Shown here: one piece after another, positions 31,367 through 59,573 of the stretch
Position numbering within the stretch: position 1 is the first letter of the stretch
Layout of the letters: each line of letters starts with the position of its first letter
Assembly (NCBI RefSeq): GCF_031432215.1
Contig: NZ_JAVKGN010000001.1
Span: 1 to 64,000, forward strand
Direction of reading: 5' to 3'
Length of the DNA: 64,000 nt
DNA from: Halodesulfurarchaeum sp. HSR-GB
Lineage (GTDB): Archaea; Halobacteriota; Halobacteria; Halobacteriales; Halobacteriaceae
The notes under the pieces: model-generated
What the model was told of the DNA's origin: nothing
What the model saw: only the letters and a program-made list of their open reading frames with translations
Database searches by the model: none
Translations under genes and position numbers: made by a program

Positions 31367-33934
31367 ATGGCCTGGCACGACCGGCCCGTCGCGGCGGTGT
31401 TCGAGACACTGGATAGCGACGCCAGCGGCCTGACGGACACGGAAGCCAGGGCGCGACTCGAATCCGGCGGGCCGAACGAGATCGAGAGCGAGGGGGGCCG
31501 AACCCCGCTCGCGGTCTTCGTCTCGCAGTTCACGAGCGGGCTGATTCTCGTGCTGATCGGGGCCGCGATCCTCTCGGCGGCGATCGGCCACCTCGTCGAT
31601 GCCGTCCTCATCGCCGTGATCCTGCTGGCAAACGGCCTCTTCGGGTTCGTCCAGGAGTACCGCGCCGAGCGGAGCCTCCAGGCCCTCGCCGAGATGGCCA
31701 CCCCGGAAGCGACGGTGATCCGGAACGGCGAGCGAGTGGAACGCAGCCAGCGGGCAGTCGTCCCGGGGGACGTGATCGTCCTGGAGGGCGGGGACGCAAT
31801 CCCGGCCGACGCTCGCGTGCTTGAGACCGCGAGCCTGGAAGTCGACGAGGCGCCGCTGACCGGCGAGAGTGTCCCCGTCGAGAAACAGAGCGGGAAACTG
31901 GCGGCAGCAACCCCGGTCGCGGAGCGGACAAACATGGTCTTCCGCGGGACAATGGTTACCCGCGGGCGGGGTCGAGCCGTCGTGGTCGAGACCGGGATGG
32001 CCACCGAGGTGGGGGCCATCGCGGACGAACTGGCCACCGCCCGGGAGCGCCAGACGCCGCTCCAGCGCGACCTCGACCGACTGGGGAAGCGGATCGGCCT
32101 GGGCGTGCTCGCACTCTCCGCGCTCGTCGTCCCGCTTTTGGTCTGGCGGGGAACGGCGCTCGTGGACGCCGCCCTGGCTGCCGTCTCCCTGGCCGTCGCC
32201 GCAATTCCGGAGGGACTGCCAGCCGTGGTCACCTTGACCCTCGCGCTTGGCGTCAGGCGGATGGCCGACGCGAACGCGCTGGTGCGAACCCTCCCGGCTG
32301 TGGAGTCCCTCGGTTCGGTCGACGTGGTCTGTACGGACAAGACGGGGACCCTGACCGAGGGGCGGATGCACGTCGATCGGTTCTGGGTCTACGACGAGAG
32401 CCACGAGCAGTTCGACGGCACCAGGCAAATAGAGACGCTGCTCACCATCGGCGCGCTCTGTAACGACGCCGATGAGGACCGGGGCGAACCCACGGAAAAG
32501 GCCCTCTACGAGGCGGCCCTCGAAGCGGGAATCGACGTGGCGGCACTGCGAGCGCGGCGACCGCGGACGGACGAGATTCCGTTCTCGGCGGATCGCAAAC
32601 GCATGACGACGATCCACGAGGACCGGGTCCGGATGAAAGGAGCCCCCACCGTGGTTCTGGAGCGCTCGAACCGAATCCTGACCGCCGACGGCGTGAAACC
32701 CCTTGACCGAGAGACACGGGACCGGATCGAAGCACAGGTCGCGGCCTTCGCCGACGACGCACTCCGGGTCCTGGGCTTTGCGTACAAAGAAGCGGGGGCG
32801 GGGGACCCCGAGTCGGACCTGGTGTTCGTCGGGCTACAGGGGCTGATCGACCCACCCCGCCCGGAGGTCGAGGCCGCCATCGCAGAGACTCGGCGTGCCG
32901 GCATCGCAGTCAAGATGATCACGGGGGACAACCGGCGCACGGCGAGGGCAATCGGGCGGGCGGTCGGCATCGAGTCCGCCGTCCTCACCGGCCCGGAGAT
33001 CGACACGATGGACGAGAAGACCCTCGCCGAGCAGGTCGCGGAAGTGGATATCTTCGCGCGCACGACCCCAACCCACAAGGTCCGGATCCTGCAGGCCTTG
33101 CAGAACAACGGCCGAACCGTCGCGATGACGGGCGATGGGGTGAACGACGCGCCCGCGCTGAAGAACGCCGACGTGGGCATCGCGATGGGCATCAGAGGCA
33201 CCGACGTCGCCAAGCAAGCCAGTGACATCACGCTCCTGGACGACAACTACGCGACAATCGAGGGAGCCATCCAGCGCGGGCGGGCGGTCTTCGACAACAT
33301 CTGGAAGTTCGTGGGCTATCTCCTCTCGGCGAACCTCGCGGAGGTGCTCCTGGTCCTGATCGCCTCGCTCTGGGGCTATCTCGTCCTCCCGGCGGTGCAG
33401 TTGCTCTGGATCAACCTGCTCACCGACGGCCTTCCGGCACTCGCGATCGGGGCAGACCCGGAGGCCTCGGACGTGATGAAACGCGGCCCGCGCACGGAGA
33501 GCGGCGTCATCGACCGGCCGATGCTGACGCTCATCGGGGGCTTCGGCGGAACGGCGACGGTCGTGCTGCTCGGCGTGCTGGTACTCACCCTCGATGGCGC
33601 TCCAGCGGTGACGTCCTACGCGATGACGATGGTGTTCACCGGCTTCGTCGTCTTCGAAATCGCGAAGCTGTATCTCGTCCGGTTCACCCGCGGGACGAGC
33701 CCGCTCTCGAATCCCTGGCTCTCGGCTGCGGTCCTCCTCTCCATCCTGCTACAGCTAGCCGTCCTGTACACCCCGCTGAACCGGTACTTCGGCACGATTC
33801 CGTTGAGCCTGAGCGACTGGGGCATTTTACTCGGCGCGCTAGGCCTGGCGATGCCTGCCTTCCTCACCGTCGCATGGGTAGTGCGGCGCTCCGTCACGGC
33901 CCAGTGGGAGCGAGATCGGACAGAGGGACCGTAA
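31367..33934 (+). CDS. P-type (P2A, Ca2+-ATPase-like) cation pump
   Basis: This 855-residue P-type ATPase is complete: actuator motif TGES, phosphorylation site DKTGTLT with D324, and the hinge TGDGVNDAPALKNADVG. IPEGLP in M4 and LLWINLLTDGLPALAIG in M6 are characteristic of P2A calcium pumps. N-terminal residues resemble the cation-ATPase N domain. It should export Ca2+ (possibly Mn2+) across the cytoplasmic membrane. The next gene, an exchanger of the CaCA family, overlaps by one base, supporting a calcium role for the pair. Confidence 0.9.
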   Translation: MAWHDRPVAAVFETLDSDASGLTDTEARARLESGGPNEIESEGGRTPLAVFVSQFTSGLILVLIGAAILSAAIGHLVDAVLIAVILLANGLFGFVQEYRAERSLQALAEMATPEATVIRNGERVERSQRAVVPGDVIVLEGGDAIPADARVLETASLEVDEAPLTGESVPVEKQSGKLAAATPVAERTNMVFRGTMVTRGRGRAVVVETGMATEVGAIADELATARERQTPLQRDLDRLGKRIGLGVLALSALVVPLLVWRGTALVDAALAAVSLAVAAIPEGLPAVVTLTLALGVRRMADANALVRTLPAVESLGSVDVVCTDKTGTLTEGRMHVDRFWVYDESHEQFDGTRQIETLLTIGALCNDADEDRGEPTEKALYEAALEAGIDVAALRARRPRTDEIPFSADRKRMTTIHEDRVRMKGAPTVVLERSNRILTADGVKPLDRETRDRIEAQVAAFADDALRVLGFAYKEAGAGDPESDLVFVGLQGLIDPPRPEVEAAIAETRRAGIAVKMITGDNRRTARAIGRAVGIESAVLTGPEIDTMDEKTLAEQVAEVDIFARTTPTHKVRILQALQNNGRTVAMTGDGVNDAPALKNADVGIAMGIRGTDVAKQASDITLLDDNYATIEGAIQRGRAVFDNIWKFVGYLLSANLAEVLLVLIASLWGYLVLPAVQLLWINLLTDGLPALAIGADPEASDVMKRGPRTESGVIDRPMLTLIGGFGGTATVVLLGVLVLTLDGAPAVTSYAMTMVFTGFVVFEIAKLYLVRFTRGTSPLSNPWLSAAVLLSILLQLAVLYTPLNRYFGTIPLSLSDWGILLGALGLAMPAFLTVAWVVRRSVTAQWERDRTEGP

Positions 33935-34848
33935 TGCTCGTCGAACTCGCGCTGTTCGTCCTCGGGCTGGCAATGTTGGTCTTCGGAGCCGACCGGGCCG
34001 TGACTGCCGCTGCCGGGCTGGCCCTCTTCTACGGCGTCTCGCCCTTCTTCGTGGGCGTGACCGTCATCTCGATCGGGACCTCGGTCCCGGAGATGGTCAC
34101 GTCGATCACCGGGGCGTACTTCGGGGCGGGCGATCTGGTCGTGGGCAACATCGTCGGCTCCGAGACCGCCCAGATCACCCTCGCGATCGCGATCGTCGCG
34201 TTCATCACCCCGATCGTGGCCAAGCGGCGAAACGTGCTCACCTACGGGAGTGCGATGCTCCTCGCGATGACGGTAATGCTGCTGGCCCTCGAAGACGGCT
34301 CGATCGGTCGCTCAGAAGGATTCCTCATGATGCTCGCCTACGTGCAGTTCGTCTACATCCTGTACACGAACGAGGGCGGGGCAGAGATCGGCGAAGAGAT
34401 AGAGGGGCGACTCAGCCCTCGTGAGGCCCTGCCGTGGATCATTGGGGGACTGGCGCTGGTCGTGGTCGGCAGCCAGATCATGGTGACTAATGGCATGGAA
34501 GTAGCCCGTATCGTGGGGGTCCCGGAGTACACGATCGGCCTGTTGACCGGTCTCGGCACGACGCTACCGGAGATCGCCATCGCCGGACTCGCCGCCACCA
34601 GGGGCCAGCAGGGGATCTCGGTGGGCTCACTGCTGGGGAGCAACGTCACGGACCCGGTCTTCTCGCTGGGGATCGGCGCCCTGTTCTTCGAGATCAGTGT
34701 GAGCAACCCCGAGCAAGTGCTGCTCTCGGCGAGTTACATGGTGCTCGTCTCGGTGGCCGTGCTCGGACTCTTGTACTGGCGGCGGGGGATTTCCCGCCCA
34801 CTCGCGGTGGTCTGTCTACTGCTCTATCTCCCCTCGCTGGTCATCTGA
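33934..34848 (+). CDS. Sodium/calcium exchanger family (CaCA) protein
   Basis: This 304-residue membrane protein with about ten helices has the two inverted alpha repeats of CaCA exchangers. GTSVPEMVTSI and VVGNIVGSETAQ lie in the first half, and GTTLPEIAIAGLAA and SVGSLLGSNVTDP in the second. It exchanges Na+ or H+ for Ca2+ or a similar ion. Its start overlaps the stop of the P-type ATPase (TAATG), so pump and exchanger are co-translated. Confidence 0.9.
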   Translation: MLVELALFVLGLAMLVFGADRAVTAAAGLALFYGVSPFFVGVTVISIGTSVPEMVTSITGAYFGAGDLVVGNIVGSETAQITLAIAIVAFITPIVAKRRNVLTYGSAMLLAMTVMLLALEDGSIGRSEGFLMMLAYVQFVYILYTNEGGAEIGEEIEGRLSPREALPWIIGGLALVVVGSQIMVTNGMEVARIVGVPEYTIGLLTGLGTTLPEIAIAGLAATRGQQGISVGSLLGSNVTDPVFSLGIGALFFEISVSNPEQVLLSASYMVLVSVAVLGLLYWRRGISRPLAVVCLLLYLPSLVI

Positions 34849-57135: not shown

Positions 57136-57666
57136 TTACCAGCCGCCAGCCCAGCCCGAGCCCTGGCCACCCATGCCGTAGCCGCCCATGCCGTGGCCAC
57201 CCATTCCGTAGCCGCCCATGCCGTGGCCACCCATTCCGTAGCCGCCCTGATGGGGTGCCTGCGAACCGTATCCACCGGGTCCGGCGCTGGGCCCGTAGTT
57301 ATCGGCCGGCCCGAACCAGCTCGGACCACTCCCGGACGGACCGTACTGGCTTCGTTCGGACGCGGTCCCGCCCCACGGGACCATGTGCTCGGCCATCCCC
57401 TGGGCCACGGCTTCGACCGTCGTGCCGGTCTCTTCCTCGAAGGCGGCAACACCATCAGGGCCCATCCGCTCTTCCATCCAGTAGGCGATGGACTCCGCGC
57501 GAGTGTCAGTCGTATTCTCGGCGTCCGCGTCCGGCGAGGCGTCCCCGTACGGGTTCGATGTTTGCGTGTCGGTTCCAGAGTGGGCAAGCGCGGTCGGGGC
57601 AAATGCCCCCACGGCGAGTGCCGTAATAATCGCCCCAGTGATCAGGACGAGTGTGGTTCGTCGCAT
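57136..57666 (-). CDS. Secreted Gly/Met/His-rich protein
   Basis: This 176-residue protein has a Sec-type signal peptide (residues ~1-28, ending PTALA). An acidic Thr/Asp segment and a helical region (SIAYWMEERMGPDGVAAFEEETG) follow. The C-terminal ~50 residues are Gly-rich with repeats of GYGMGGHGMG. The Met/His/Gly pattern would suit binding of soft metals such as Cu(I)/Ag(I) outside the cell; that is inference. The gene is downstream of a membrane-tethered winged-helix regulator on the same strand. No family is recognised. Confidence 0.78.
   Translation of the reverse strand: MRRTTLVLITGAIITALAVGAFAPTALAHSGTDTQTSNPYGDASPDADAENTTDTRAESIAYWMEERMGPDGVAAFEEETGTTVEAVAQGMAEHMVPWGGTASERSQYGPSGSGPSWFGPADNYGPSAGPGGYGSQAPHQGGYGMGGHGMGGYGMGGHGMGGYGMGGQGSGWAGGW
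57161..57246. repeat. 30-bp tandem repeat encoding GYGMGGHGMG
   Basis: Two exact 30-bp units (57181-57210, 57211-57240) lie between partial copies on each side. The repeat stays in frame and likely expands or contracts by slippage. Confidence 0.85.
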
Positions 57667-57721
57667 TGCAAATGAACCTATAGACCGGGGAGGGTTTGTC
57701 TCCGTGGCCGTGAACGAACTC

Positions 57722-57746
57722 AGGAGAACGTTGTAAAACGTTTCTC
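57722..57746. promoter_or_regulatory. Paired AACGTT motif upstream of the secreted protein gene
   Basis: GAGAACGTTGTAAAACGTTTCTC contains two AACGTT hexamers four bases apart inside an imperfect inverted repeat (GAGA...TCTC). On the minus strand the central TTTTACAA could act as a TATA box for the gene starting at 57666. This is a plausible binding site for the neighbouring winged-helix regulator. Confidence 0.4.
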
Positions 57747-57793
57747 GACAGAGCTGAGCGTTTTTGAGAACAGAGACCGTTCGTCGAGCCCGG

Positions 57794-58411
57794 TCACTCG
57801 GTTACGCCGGGCAATTGCTCGGCCGGGTAGACACGATAGGTCCGCCCCTGCTTTTCGCGATACACGAGCCCCCGCTTTTCCAGGTCCGAGATCGTCTGGC
57901 TCACCTTGCTCTTCGAGAAGTCCGATCGGTCCCTGACCTCGATCTGGGTGAGGCCGGGCGATTCCAGAACGGGTTCGAGAATCCGCCGCTCGTCTTCGGG
58001 CAGCAGGTCGAGCAGTGCGCGCTGTGATTCGAGCCCTGCCACCGATTCCACACTCGACGTGGCGTCCGTGGGGACGTCCGTGGACTCCTCGTCTGGTTCG
58101 TGGGCAGCGGATTCGATGTCGGACGTGCCCATTTGCGGTGCCGCCTGGGTTTCGGGTTCGGTCCACTCGTCTCGCAGGACGAGATAGCCGCCGCCCAGCA
58201 CCCCCGCCACCACTAGCGTGCCGACGGCGATGACCAGGGGATCTGCACCCTGTGTCGTACCCATCCCGTCCATCATCGATCCCATCATGCCGTCCATCTG
58301 GCTGTCGAAGGCCTGCTGGGCCTGGTACCGGTCCCAGGTCCACAACCCGCCCAGCAGCAGGACCGCACCCACGACGATCGCCGCCAGGCGGTCCGCGCGT
58401 CGTCTGTTCAT
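57794..58411 (-). CDS. Membrane-tethered winged-helix regulator with Met-rich external loop
   Basis: This 205-residue protein has TM1 (residues ~9-26), a Met-rich loop predicted outside the cell (Met 39, 42, 43, 46, 47, 50), TM2 (~58-79), an acidic linker, and a cytoplasmic winged HTH (~130-200; LTQIEVRDRSDFSKSKVSQTISDLEKRGLVYREKQGR). It looks like a one-component regulator sensing something at the cell surface; the Met cluster suggests a soft metal. It lies upstream of the secreted Met/Gly-rich gene and is divergent from the SHOCT gene with the same loop layout. Confidence 0.82.
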   Translation of the reverse strand: MNRRRADRLAAIVVGAVLLLGGLWTWDRYQAQQAFDSQMDGMMGSMMDGMGTTQGADPLVIAVGTLVVAGVLGGGYLVLRDEWTEPETQAAPQMGTSDIESAAHEPDEESTDVPTDATSSVESVAGLESQRALLDLLPEDERRILEPVLESPGLTQIEVRDRSDFSKSKVSQTISDLEKRGLVYREKQGRTYRVYPAEQLPGVTE

Positions 58412-58542
58412 CTTATGAAGAGGAAGGCTTCGAAGACATGAAAGCCCTCCCCTCCCGGCTGGCGGCGGACCCGGCCAACCGTGATGGGGTCGATCTCGCC
58501 ACCGATGAACGATCTCTCGAACGAAAAACGATTAGCAGGCAG

Positions 58543-58549
58543 TATAAAA
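58543..58549. promoter_or_regulatory. TATA box in the divergent promoter region
   Basis: TATAAAA sits in the 300-bp intergenic region 58412-58711 between two divergent genes. Read on the plus strand it would start transcription near 58572, before the mini-gene and SHOCT genes; read on the minus strand, TTTTATA could also serve the regulator. I see no other gene in the region except the 28-codon frame at 58624. Confidence 0.5.
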
Positions 58550-58623
58550 TCTCTAAGCTGATTTGCACACTGCATTTTCGGGCAGGTAGATAACCCCTGG
58601 GGAGATCTATGGGGCAATAGACG

Positions 58624-58710
58624 ATGACCGATCTACCAACCGAACCGATACGCGTTCCAGTCCGACCGAGTCCCACCCATACGACCGCCGGTTCCGGAGG
58701 TGACCGATAA
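58624..58710 (+). CDS. Candidate 28-residue upstream peptide
   Basis: A 28-codon frame (starts MTDLPTEPIRV, ends GSGGDR) stops one base before the ATG of the SHOCT gene, giving the same TAACATG junction as aEF1B and GINS in this window. Its last codons form the GGAGGTGA Shine-Dalgarno-like sequence for the next gene. It is Pro/Arg/Thr-rich and not acidic, so it may act mainly in coupling. No homology is recognised. Confidence 0.35.
   Translation: MTDLPTEPIRVPVRPSPTHTTAGSGGDR
58696..58703 (+). promoter_or_regulatory. Strong Shine-Dalgarno site before the SHOCT gene
   Basis: GGAGGTGA lies 8 nt before the ATG at 58712. It is unusual among the leaderless genes here and decides the start over the in-frame GTG at 58700, which lies within the motif itself. 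Confidence 0.55.
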
Positions 58711-58711
58711 C

Positions 58712-59086
58712 ATGAACAGCCTGCACAAACGGATCGGGCTGGGCGTGTTGGCACTCGCGGGACTCATCCTCCTCGTGCCGACGTTCCTCTCGGGGGCCAC
58801 CGGGGGCTATGGCATGATGGGTGGTGGGTACGGCGGCATGATGGGTGGTGGGTACGGCGGCGGAATGGGACTGCTGGGGCCGTTCACACAACTGCTCTTC
58901 CTGGCACTCCTCGTCGCGGGGGCGTACGTTCTCTTCCAGGCGGTCGCCGGAGACGGTGGTCCCCGACCCGGCCGTTCCGGGGATGCGGCCATCGAGGAAC
59001 TGCGGAACGCCTACGCCCGCGGTGACATCTCGGAGGAGGAGTTCGAGCGACGCCGGGCGACGCTCCGTCTCGACGGCGAGCGATGA
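58712..59086 (+). CDS. SHOCT-domain membrane protein with Met/Gly-rich loop
   Basis: This 124-residue protein has TM1 (~8-26), a loop GGYGMMGGGYGGMMGGG (Met 35, 36, 43, 44, 52), TM2 (~57-79), and a cytoplasmic SHOCT domain (~92-120; AIEELRNAYARGDISEEEFERR). SHOCT is a short C-terminal oligomerisation motif. The topology and Met-rich external loop copy those of the divergent regulator. The loop is encoded by two exact 24-bp repeats. Confidence 0.82.
   Translation: MNSLHKRIGLGVLALAGLILLVPTFLSGATGGYGMMGGGYGGMMGGGYGGGMGLLGPFTQLLFLALLVAGAYVLFQAVAGDGGPRPGRSGDAAIEELRNAYARGDISEEEFERRRATLRLDGER
58811..58858. repeat. 24-bp tandem repeat encoding GMMGGGYG
   Basis: Units 58811-58834 and 58835-58858 are identical in-frame 24-bp copies in the SHOCT gene. 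They expand the Met-rich external loop in the same manner as the 30-bp repeat in the secreted protein gene. Confidence 0.8.
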
Positions 59087-59120
59087 CCGACCGACGGACA
59101 TACCATCTAAAGAAATTCGA

Positions 59121-59573
59121 ATGAGGCGGCTTTGGCCACTACTTGCGCTCGCGGGAGGGATCCTCGGTGTCGTGCTGGCACAGACGAGCCTCGGACTGGG
59201 CCAGTGGCCAATACTGGCCCTTGTTGTAGCTGCCGTTCTCGTCGCGTTCACAGCGAGCGGGTCGCTCTCGATCGGCGAGGACAGCACCAGTCAGTCCACC
59301 GGAAAGGCAACGAGCCTCGAAGCACTCAAACAACGGTACGTCGCCGGCGAGATTGACGACGTCGAGTTCGAGCGAAAGCTGGAGACGCTGTTCGAGAACG
59401 AGACGGTCTCGGACGTCGAGCGCTCGCTCCAGCGTGAAACCGATTCGACGGGCGACCCGGAATCGAGCCCGGAGACGGTCGAGCCAGAACCACGGGTCGA
59501 GGATACACACCCGGAACGGCGGAAATCCCGGCACGACAGACGTTGCGGCTCCCGACGACGGTCGTGCAGGTAG
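59121..59573 (+). CDS. Second SHOCT-domain membrane protein
   Basis: This 150-residue protein has two N-terminal helices (~3-20 and ~28-45), an external loop too short for a Met cluster, and a SHOCT domain (SLEALKQRYVAGEIDDVEFERKLETLF, ~62-90). A hydrophilic tail follows and ends in an unusually basic RRKSRHDRRCGSRRRSCR. That tail is out of character for a haloarchaeon and may come from a late frameshift. It lies 34 nt after the first SHOCT gene and is probably co-transcribed. Confidence 0.72.
   Translation: MRRLWPLLALAGGILGVVLAQTSLGLGQWPILALVVAAVLVAFTASGSLSIGEDSTSQSTGKATSLEALKQRYVAGEIDDVEFERKLETLFENETVSDVERSLQRETDSTGDPESSPETVEPEPRVEDTHPERRKSRHDRRCGSRRRSCR

Follow-up and report, generated by a model that had tools for sequence, protein, structure and literature searches.

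Organization of the locus

The window, that is, the whole stretch of 64,000 nucleotides of Halodesulfurarchaeum sp. HSR-GB that was analysed, carries four genes at positions 57136-59573: P0001, REG (P0002), P0003 and P0004. All four were found by an ORF check, as an earlier note on this DNA had claimed. Promoter elements were located with R1, a sequence-only model built from other genera, with the window's genus left out. The features are the following.

57136..57666, minus: P0001, secreted Met/His/Gly protein, 176 aa (ORF, signal-like N-terminus)
about 57160-57249, minus: Gly-Tyr-Gly-Met repeats of P0001 (sequence)
57583-57666, minus: predicted signal peptide of P0001, cleaved between ..TALA and HS (cleavage judged by eye)
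57681..57784, minus: promoter element before P0001, with half-sites, TATA region and leader (model R1, E 2.4e-14)
57794..58411, minus: REG (P0002), membrane-tethered winged-HTH regulator, 205 aa (Pfam, hydropathy, homologues)
57833..57997, minus: cytoplasmic winged-HTH of REG, residues 139-193 (Pfam, DUF7343 E 4.4e-10, MarR_2 E 3.6e-8)
58238..58330, minus: Met-rich extracytoplasmic loop of REG, residues about 28-58, QMDGMMGSMMDGMGTTQ (homologue alignment)
58505..58614, plus: promoter element before P0003 (model R1, E 2.5e-9; alignment)
58507-58514 and 58527-58535, plus: half-sites GAACGATC and AACGATTAG, respectively, of the P0003 promoter (element alignment)
58543-58549, plus: TATAAAA of the P0003 promoter, with GATAACCCC in the leader
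58712..59086, plus: P0003, TM-Met loop-TM-SHOCT (Pfam SHOCT, hydropathy)
58793-58885, plus: Met/Gly-rich loop of P0003, between the two TMs
58985-59065, plus: SHOCT domain of P0003 (Pfam 35.8 bits, cut-off 27)
59121..59573, plus: P0004, 2TM-SHOCT with a basic Arg/His/Cys tail, cluster C15 (start ATG 59121)
59313-59390, plus: SHOCT domain of P0004 (Pfam 28.5 bits, cut-off 27)

P0001 has one N-terminal hydrophobic segment (residues 5-23 by hydropathy) resembling a signal peptide, and it matches no known family in Pfam or NCBIfam. Its own family comprises 36 loci and 21 non-redundant members, in all of which (21/21) the predicted mature N-terminus, with cleavage judged by eye, is a His. A C-terminal Cys is found in 20/21 members and is absent from P0001. 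The GYGMGGHGMG-type repeats, which the earlier note had seen in a secreted protein beside the regulator, are indeed present in P0001 and are specific to the window's genus.

By hydropathy, the TMs of P0003 lie at residues 8-26 and 61-79, and those of P0004 at about 7-26 and 31-49. P0004 is a second SHOCT protein, as proposed, with a domain score above the cut-off, but it has no Met loop. The layout said to be common to REG and P0003 holds for the TMs and the Met loop, and in a comparison of the two family profiles (hhalign 92%, E 8e-7) the matched region comprises the Met loop and TM2. This match is significant, so that the likeness is more than an impression, although sequences of this kind are of low complexity. 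When the best 34-aa stretches of the 75 called window genes were compared for Met density, REG ranked first (6 Met), and P0001 and P0003 (5 Met per 34 aa) tied for second with one other gene, against a background of 1.5% Met. The Met richness of the cluster is not a matter of chance.

A membrane-tethered regulator with a conserved Met/His loop

REG has two TMs (residues 9-27 and 60-78 by hydropathy) around the loop, and an acidic linker between this part and the winged helix. The winged HTH that had been placed at its cytoplasmic end was recovered as matches to DUF7343 (39.7 bits, cut-off 27.6) and MarR_2 (33.9 bits, cut-off 27). Residues 139-193 alone match; a soluble MarR dimer fold across the whole of REG was not found, the remainder of the protein being the two TMs, loop and linker. 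Two solved MarR chains match REG weakly, over 30-38 residues, and the AlphaFold model has two TM helices and wHTH-like elements, although it is poor (pLDDT 60) and no fold search was based on it. The RefSeq label of the homologues is only 'MarR family transcriptional regulator'.

An order-wide search for full-length homologues (E<=1e-20) detected REG in 118/392 haloarchaeal genomes and 45/95 genera, with hosts that include Haloarcula, Halorubrum, Haloferax, Natrinema, Halorussus and Natronomonas and identities mostly of 42-59%. In the homologue alignment the wHTH is nearly invariant, with most columns fixed, the linker is not conserved, and the loop keeps M-x-x-M/H-M...M...H across the haloarchaeal homologues. 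Among 46 non-redundant sequences, Met43 is present in 46, position 42 is Met in 42 and His in 4, and Met39, Met50 and His54 are found in 40, 36 and 42, respectively. Met/His conservation is higher in the loop than in the linker, and no Cys occurs in the loop across the aligned homologues. The earlier note had made its reading depend on conservation of the Met residues, and they are conserved, with a Met/His exchange at one position. In the window's genus the loop His is lost, position 54 of the window REG being Gln, and the loop of the window REG has more Met.

Met and His are soft-metal ligands, as in CusS, CusF and similar proteins. Because Met and His exchange at a fixed site and Cys is absent, the loop fits Cu(I)/Ag(I) ligands. 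The conserved Met/His set is present both in the REG family and in distant homologues: a phylum profile search found proteins of the type TM-(HHMMM or HMGMMGMMG)-TM-linker-DUF7343 in other families, and some homologues outside the haloarchaea adjoin Met-rich, cytochrome c-like, DUF411 or cupredoxin-like proteins.

A rigid promoter element that accompanies REG

Model R1 has exactly two matches in the window, one before P0001 and one before P0003, and across the whole own genome no other match is strong (next E 0.004). The pattern GAACGNTC-N12-AACGNTTA has a single exact match in the 2.25-Mb genome, at 58507, and three one-mismatch matches, one of which, at 57755-57782, is the P0001 promoter. 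The sharing of this element by the two promoters gives independent support for one regulon.

Nineteen promoters from other genera align over 131 nt with zero internal indels, in the order GAACGNTC ... AAACGNTTAGA ... TATA ... ACGTTCTCGAACGTTC ... TTCACACCC ... GATAAC ... GAGG ... ATG. Four ACGNT half-sites, starting at columns 7, 26, 46 and 56 in 18-19/19 promoters, flank the TATA box with spacings of about 2, 2 and 1 helical turns. Among 80 named loci, the exact pattern with a 13-base gap occurs in 53, whereas other gaps give 0-1 and 12 shuffled patterns give 0. The sequence CGTTC-N2-GAACG lies upstream of the secreted gene in 21/36 loci and in 0/460 control upstreams. This 131-nt indel-free element, with its four half-sites round a TATA box, is new here.

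Two other readings of the 131-nt stretch were rejected. A small ORF is contradicted by equal codon-phase entropies, a start codon missing in 6-7/19 and stops in 4/19, and a structured RNA leader by the finding of only 5 weak pairs with no compensatory change or covariation.

Across 146 genomes, the exact pattern was found in 24/38 REG-positive and 6/108 REG-negative genomes (p 1.5e-12), 24 of its 32 matches lay within 7 kb of REG, and a reversed control pattern gave 0 matches. From this co-conservation we infer that REG regulates transcription from the membrane. The six REG-negative genomes with an exact match, and one genome (G005) with the element before a SHOCT array where no REG was detected, would also suit an element bound by another regulator, for example an AsnC/TRASH copper regulator, with REG merely tuning the response or reading the same signal. 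AsnC-type (AsnC/TRASH) regulators are indeed found in several copper islands of relatives, and in relatives the promoter of REG itself has a different conserved box. However, the exact matches track REG and mostly adjoin it, and the TRASH protein of the own genome has no strong element match at its locus (1.47 Mb), so that control by another regulator seems unlikely to us.

Gene neighbourhood in relatives

The neighbourhood was compared between 40 REG loci and 40 paired control regions from the same genomes, within about 6 kb. Genes for Met-rich SHOCT proteins were found at 32/40 REG loci versus 2/40 controls, for the secreted protein at 28/40 versus 0/40, for a COG0701 permease at 21/40 versus 2/40, for DUF302 at 20/40 versus 0/40 and for a P1B ATPase at 17/40 versus 2/40. 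Any metal transporter or cuproprotein was present at 30/40 versus 6/40 (p 5e-8). The p-values of this comparison are rough, as the REG loci also served to build its family models. Like the p-value for the promoter pattern, they overstate independence, given the kinship of the loci and the near-identity of some islands. The neighbourhood, whose conservation the earlier note had made a test of its reading, is thus conserved and specific with respect to the paired control regions, and the CopA/CopZ-type genes that it predicted nearby are present at REG loci of relatives.

In a survey of 55 REG genes, the secreted family was encoded on the strand of REG in 34 of the 36 loci having it, usually just downstream; SHOCT - DUF302 - SHOCT came next in many loci, with a permease, P-type ATPases, a multicopper oxidase or Csp nearby. 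By Pfam/NCBIfam domains, these neighbours are ArsP_1+YHS proteins (the COG0701 permease), heavy-metal P1B copper ATPases with CopZ-like HMA domains, copper_res_A-like multicopper oxidases and Csp1-like four-helix proteins of the Csp storage type. One RefSeq plasmid has the order SHOCT - permease - 'MarR family' - multicopper oxidase - hypothetical - SHOCT - DUF302 - SHOCT ... AsnC - HMA - copper-translocating P-type ATPase, and a second plasmid is similar.

The own genome is arranged differently. CopA (with a CPC motif), CopZ and the TRASH-domain protein are encoded at about 1.47 Mb and the one COG0701 permease at 1.97 Mb, and neither a metal transporter nor the copper-gene neighbourhood of relatives was found beside REG in the window. 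The P-type ATPase of the window (31367-33934) was rejected as CopA, having no CPC motif. The description of the cluster as self-contained is therefore wrong in general, since relatives have the REG module inside larger copper islands and the own genome has CopA/CopZ and a TRASH protein at a separate locus. This separate locus implies a separate cytoplasmic copper response, with the window cluster as the putative arm for the envelope. The loss of the loop His in the window REG, the lack of a metal transporter beside it and the genome's own TRASH-type CopA/CopZ elsewhere speak against a metal-sensor model.

A place in copper islands is no proof of the ligand of REG, and loops rich in Met and Gly could serve other purposes. 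REG might answer general envelope or membrane stress, its Met/Gly loops being structural and the copper genes being there by way of accessory resistance islands. The many REG loci on plasmids and the window copy without an adjoining transporter agree with this, as does the unknown function of SHOCT (PMC3581485). Yet REG copies on chromosomes have this Met loop and element as well, the loop Met/His are better conserved than the linker, and the Met/His loop is kept outside the haloarchaea, in some cases beside cupredoxin-like or DUF411 genes. There is also a natural fusion (L048:5314-6060) of a plastocyanin-type copper-binding domain, a Met-rich segment, a TM and SHOCT. We consider a general stress response rather unlikely.

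Sensing of oxidative damage (e.g. of hypochlorous acid, through conversion of loop Met to Met-sulfoxide), with the Met-rich surface proteins as sacrificial antioxidants, is improbable. In its favour, oxidants of this type attack Met above all, such proteins are plausible scavengers and thioredoxin-like genes occur in some loci (5/40 versus 0/40 controls). However, the representative loci that were scanned encode copper ATPases, permeases and cuproproteins as neighbours, and no peroxidases or Met-sulfoxide reductases; the Met-to-His exchange at position 42 and the His in 42/46 homologues are also better explained by metal binding than by oxidation.

A proposed envelope copper/silver response

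Taking the observed architecture, conservation, neighbourhood and element together, we think it probable that REG, as a one-component protein tethered to the membrane, senses Cu(I)/Ag(I) and acts at the element to control envelope metal-binding proteins. Binding of a soft metal, probably Cu(I), Ag(I) or both, to the Met/His loop outside the cytoplasmic membrane would change the TM hairpin, and this change would be passed on to the cytoplasmic wHTH, which is predicted to bind the element, with its four ACGNT half-sites round the TATA, at the P0001 and P0003 promoters. The output would be secreted and membrane-bound Met-rich proteins expected to bind metal at the surface, so that extracellular metal would lead to more envelope metal ligands. 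These targets may sequester the metal, or may hand it over to the efflux or oxidase machinery encoded nearby in relatives. On metal switching, REG may either activate or derepress, as half-sites lie on either side of the TATA, upstream where an activator would sit and downstream where a repressor would.

Silver raises the expression of copA and of genes for a SHOCT membrane protein and a COG0701 permease in Haloferax alexandrinus (PMC10694973), which by analogy is consistent with reading the cluster as a Cu/Ag regulon. The earlier interpretation as a soft-metal surface system is partly supported. On the evidence of sequence, we incline slightly towards a broader claim, namely that this is an undescribed archaeal form of envelope copper/silver control, haloarchaea-wide, in which a tethered regulator is coupled to a rigid 131-nt promoter, its loop being built from the TM-Met loop-TM module of the SHOCT effector and its sensor part occurring also in other archaeal families.

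The archaeal copper regulators characterised so far are, as far as we know, cytoplasmic. REG is a concrete and widespread candidate for archaeal sensing of metal outside the membrane, and it comes with sensor residues, a putative DNA site and targets, and with easy genetics in Haloferax-type hosts. If the proposal is true, it would provide a function for two groups that lack one, the common family of Met-rich SHOCT proteins and the orphan secreted family of P0001.

Comparison with known systems

The archaeal TRASH copper regulators (CopR/CopT type; HVO_1752-like) are copper-linked wHTH proteins. They are cytoplasmic and have a Cys metal site, whereas REG is membrane-bound with almost no Cys; REG has no Pfam match to TRASH, and in the own genome this domain was found in a separate protein. 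Among the profiles of other copper regulators, CopY reaches 12.5 bits against REG (cut-off 122), and neither CsoR nor CueR is among the matches listed.

The bacterial proteins CopC, PcoE, CusF and CinA are Met-rich, secreted or periplasmic, and bind soft metals by Met/His. CinA is cited in PMC10694973. P0001 differs from these in belonging to no Pfam/NCBIfam family, and its relatives have a common WMExxM-type core and end in GHC/HGC. P0003 and P0004 share the C-terminal SHOCT with PF09851 membrane proteins (PMC3581485), a domain for which the available part of the founding paper proposes no metal role; the SHOCT proteins described here are associated with a conserved Met-rich extracytoplasmic segment, with copper genes and with a dedicated promoter.

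No description of the REG system was found in a literature search outside of which most subscription journals lay, and the search returned nothing on DUF7343 and nothing specific on membrane-bound copper regulators in haloarchaea. The known transmembrane transcription regulators (TTRs) include ToxR, CadC and TcpP and the archaeal ArnR/ArnR1 (PMC10269533, PMC6396743). As in TTRs, a TM segment and a DNA-binding domain are joined in one protein throughout the REG family. In ArnR the HTH is N-terminal and the two TMs are C-terminal, and the protein also has a HAMP-like part and a sensing domain. REG has the opposite arrangement, its two TMs being N-terminal, with a short Met/His outer loop, and its DUF7343/MarR wHTH C-terminal. 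Neither 'copper' nor 'metal' is used in the main text of the TTR survey.

Sensor kinases of the CusS/CopS type sense Cu/Ag outside the membrane via Met/His ligands. These are two-component systems, with a kinase and a response regulator, whereas REG is a one-component protein with a loop of about 30 residues and no histidine kinase domain in Pfam or NCBIfam. REG is thus not a TRASH, CsoR, CueR or CopY regulator, nor a two-component system; by analogy, it would work like a TTR crossed with a CusS-type sensor loop.

A box in the REG promoter and further sites of the ACGNT element

In many relatives (loci L047-L122), the promoter of the gene for REG, the predicted membrane-tethered winged-HTH regulator, carried a second conserved box, AATC(A/C)(A/C)AACTGGTACA, located about 85 nt 5' of the gene and roughly 25 nt ahead of a TATGA; no such box was seen within the window. 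The conserved ACGNT half-site/TATA element, a putative REG site, was found ahead of a SHOCT array in genome G005 (G005:C2:54278-54359), where no REG was detected, and at an additional site in G012 (G012:C1:1879308-1879405). Both are possible members of the regulon distant from REG.

SHOCT proteins

The second SHOCT protein of the cluster, P0004, and its relatives end in a basic Arg/His/Cys C-terminal tail, presumably cytoplasmic:

Window 59500-59573, plus strand: tail of P0004, HPERRKSRHDRRCGSRRRSCR
L104:7433-7894: tail of the P0004 relative, HHRQKCHRRRKHHHGRH

A third SHOCT protein of the genome (G000:C1:1511452-1511532; L003) is not close to the cluster, and the promoter element has no strong match there.

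Neighbouring genes

In the sister genome G001, the same cluster as in the window is adjoined by two genes resembling a transposase pair of the IS200/IS605 type, placed between the AzlC and JAB genes (L046:10852-12718) and missing from the window. Window positions 31367-34848 hold a cation P-type ATPase of non-P1B kind, in which the CPC motif is absent. The gene immediately after it encodes a membrane protein which, judged by eye, resembles a Ca/Na exchanger.

A COG0701/ArsP_1 permease that carries a YHS/TRASH-like Cys domain at its C-terminus was a repeated neighbour of REG (L108:7895-9283, L085 and others). It may represent a distinct haloarchaeal metal permease; against the SO_0444 Cu/Zn efflux equivalog it scored 72 bits, far under the 300-bit cut-off.
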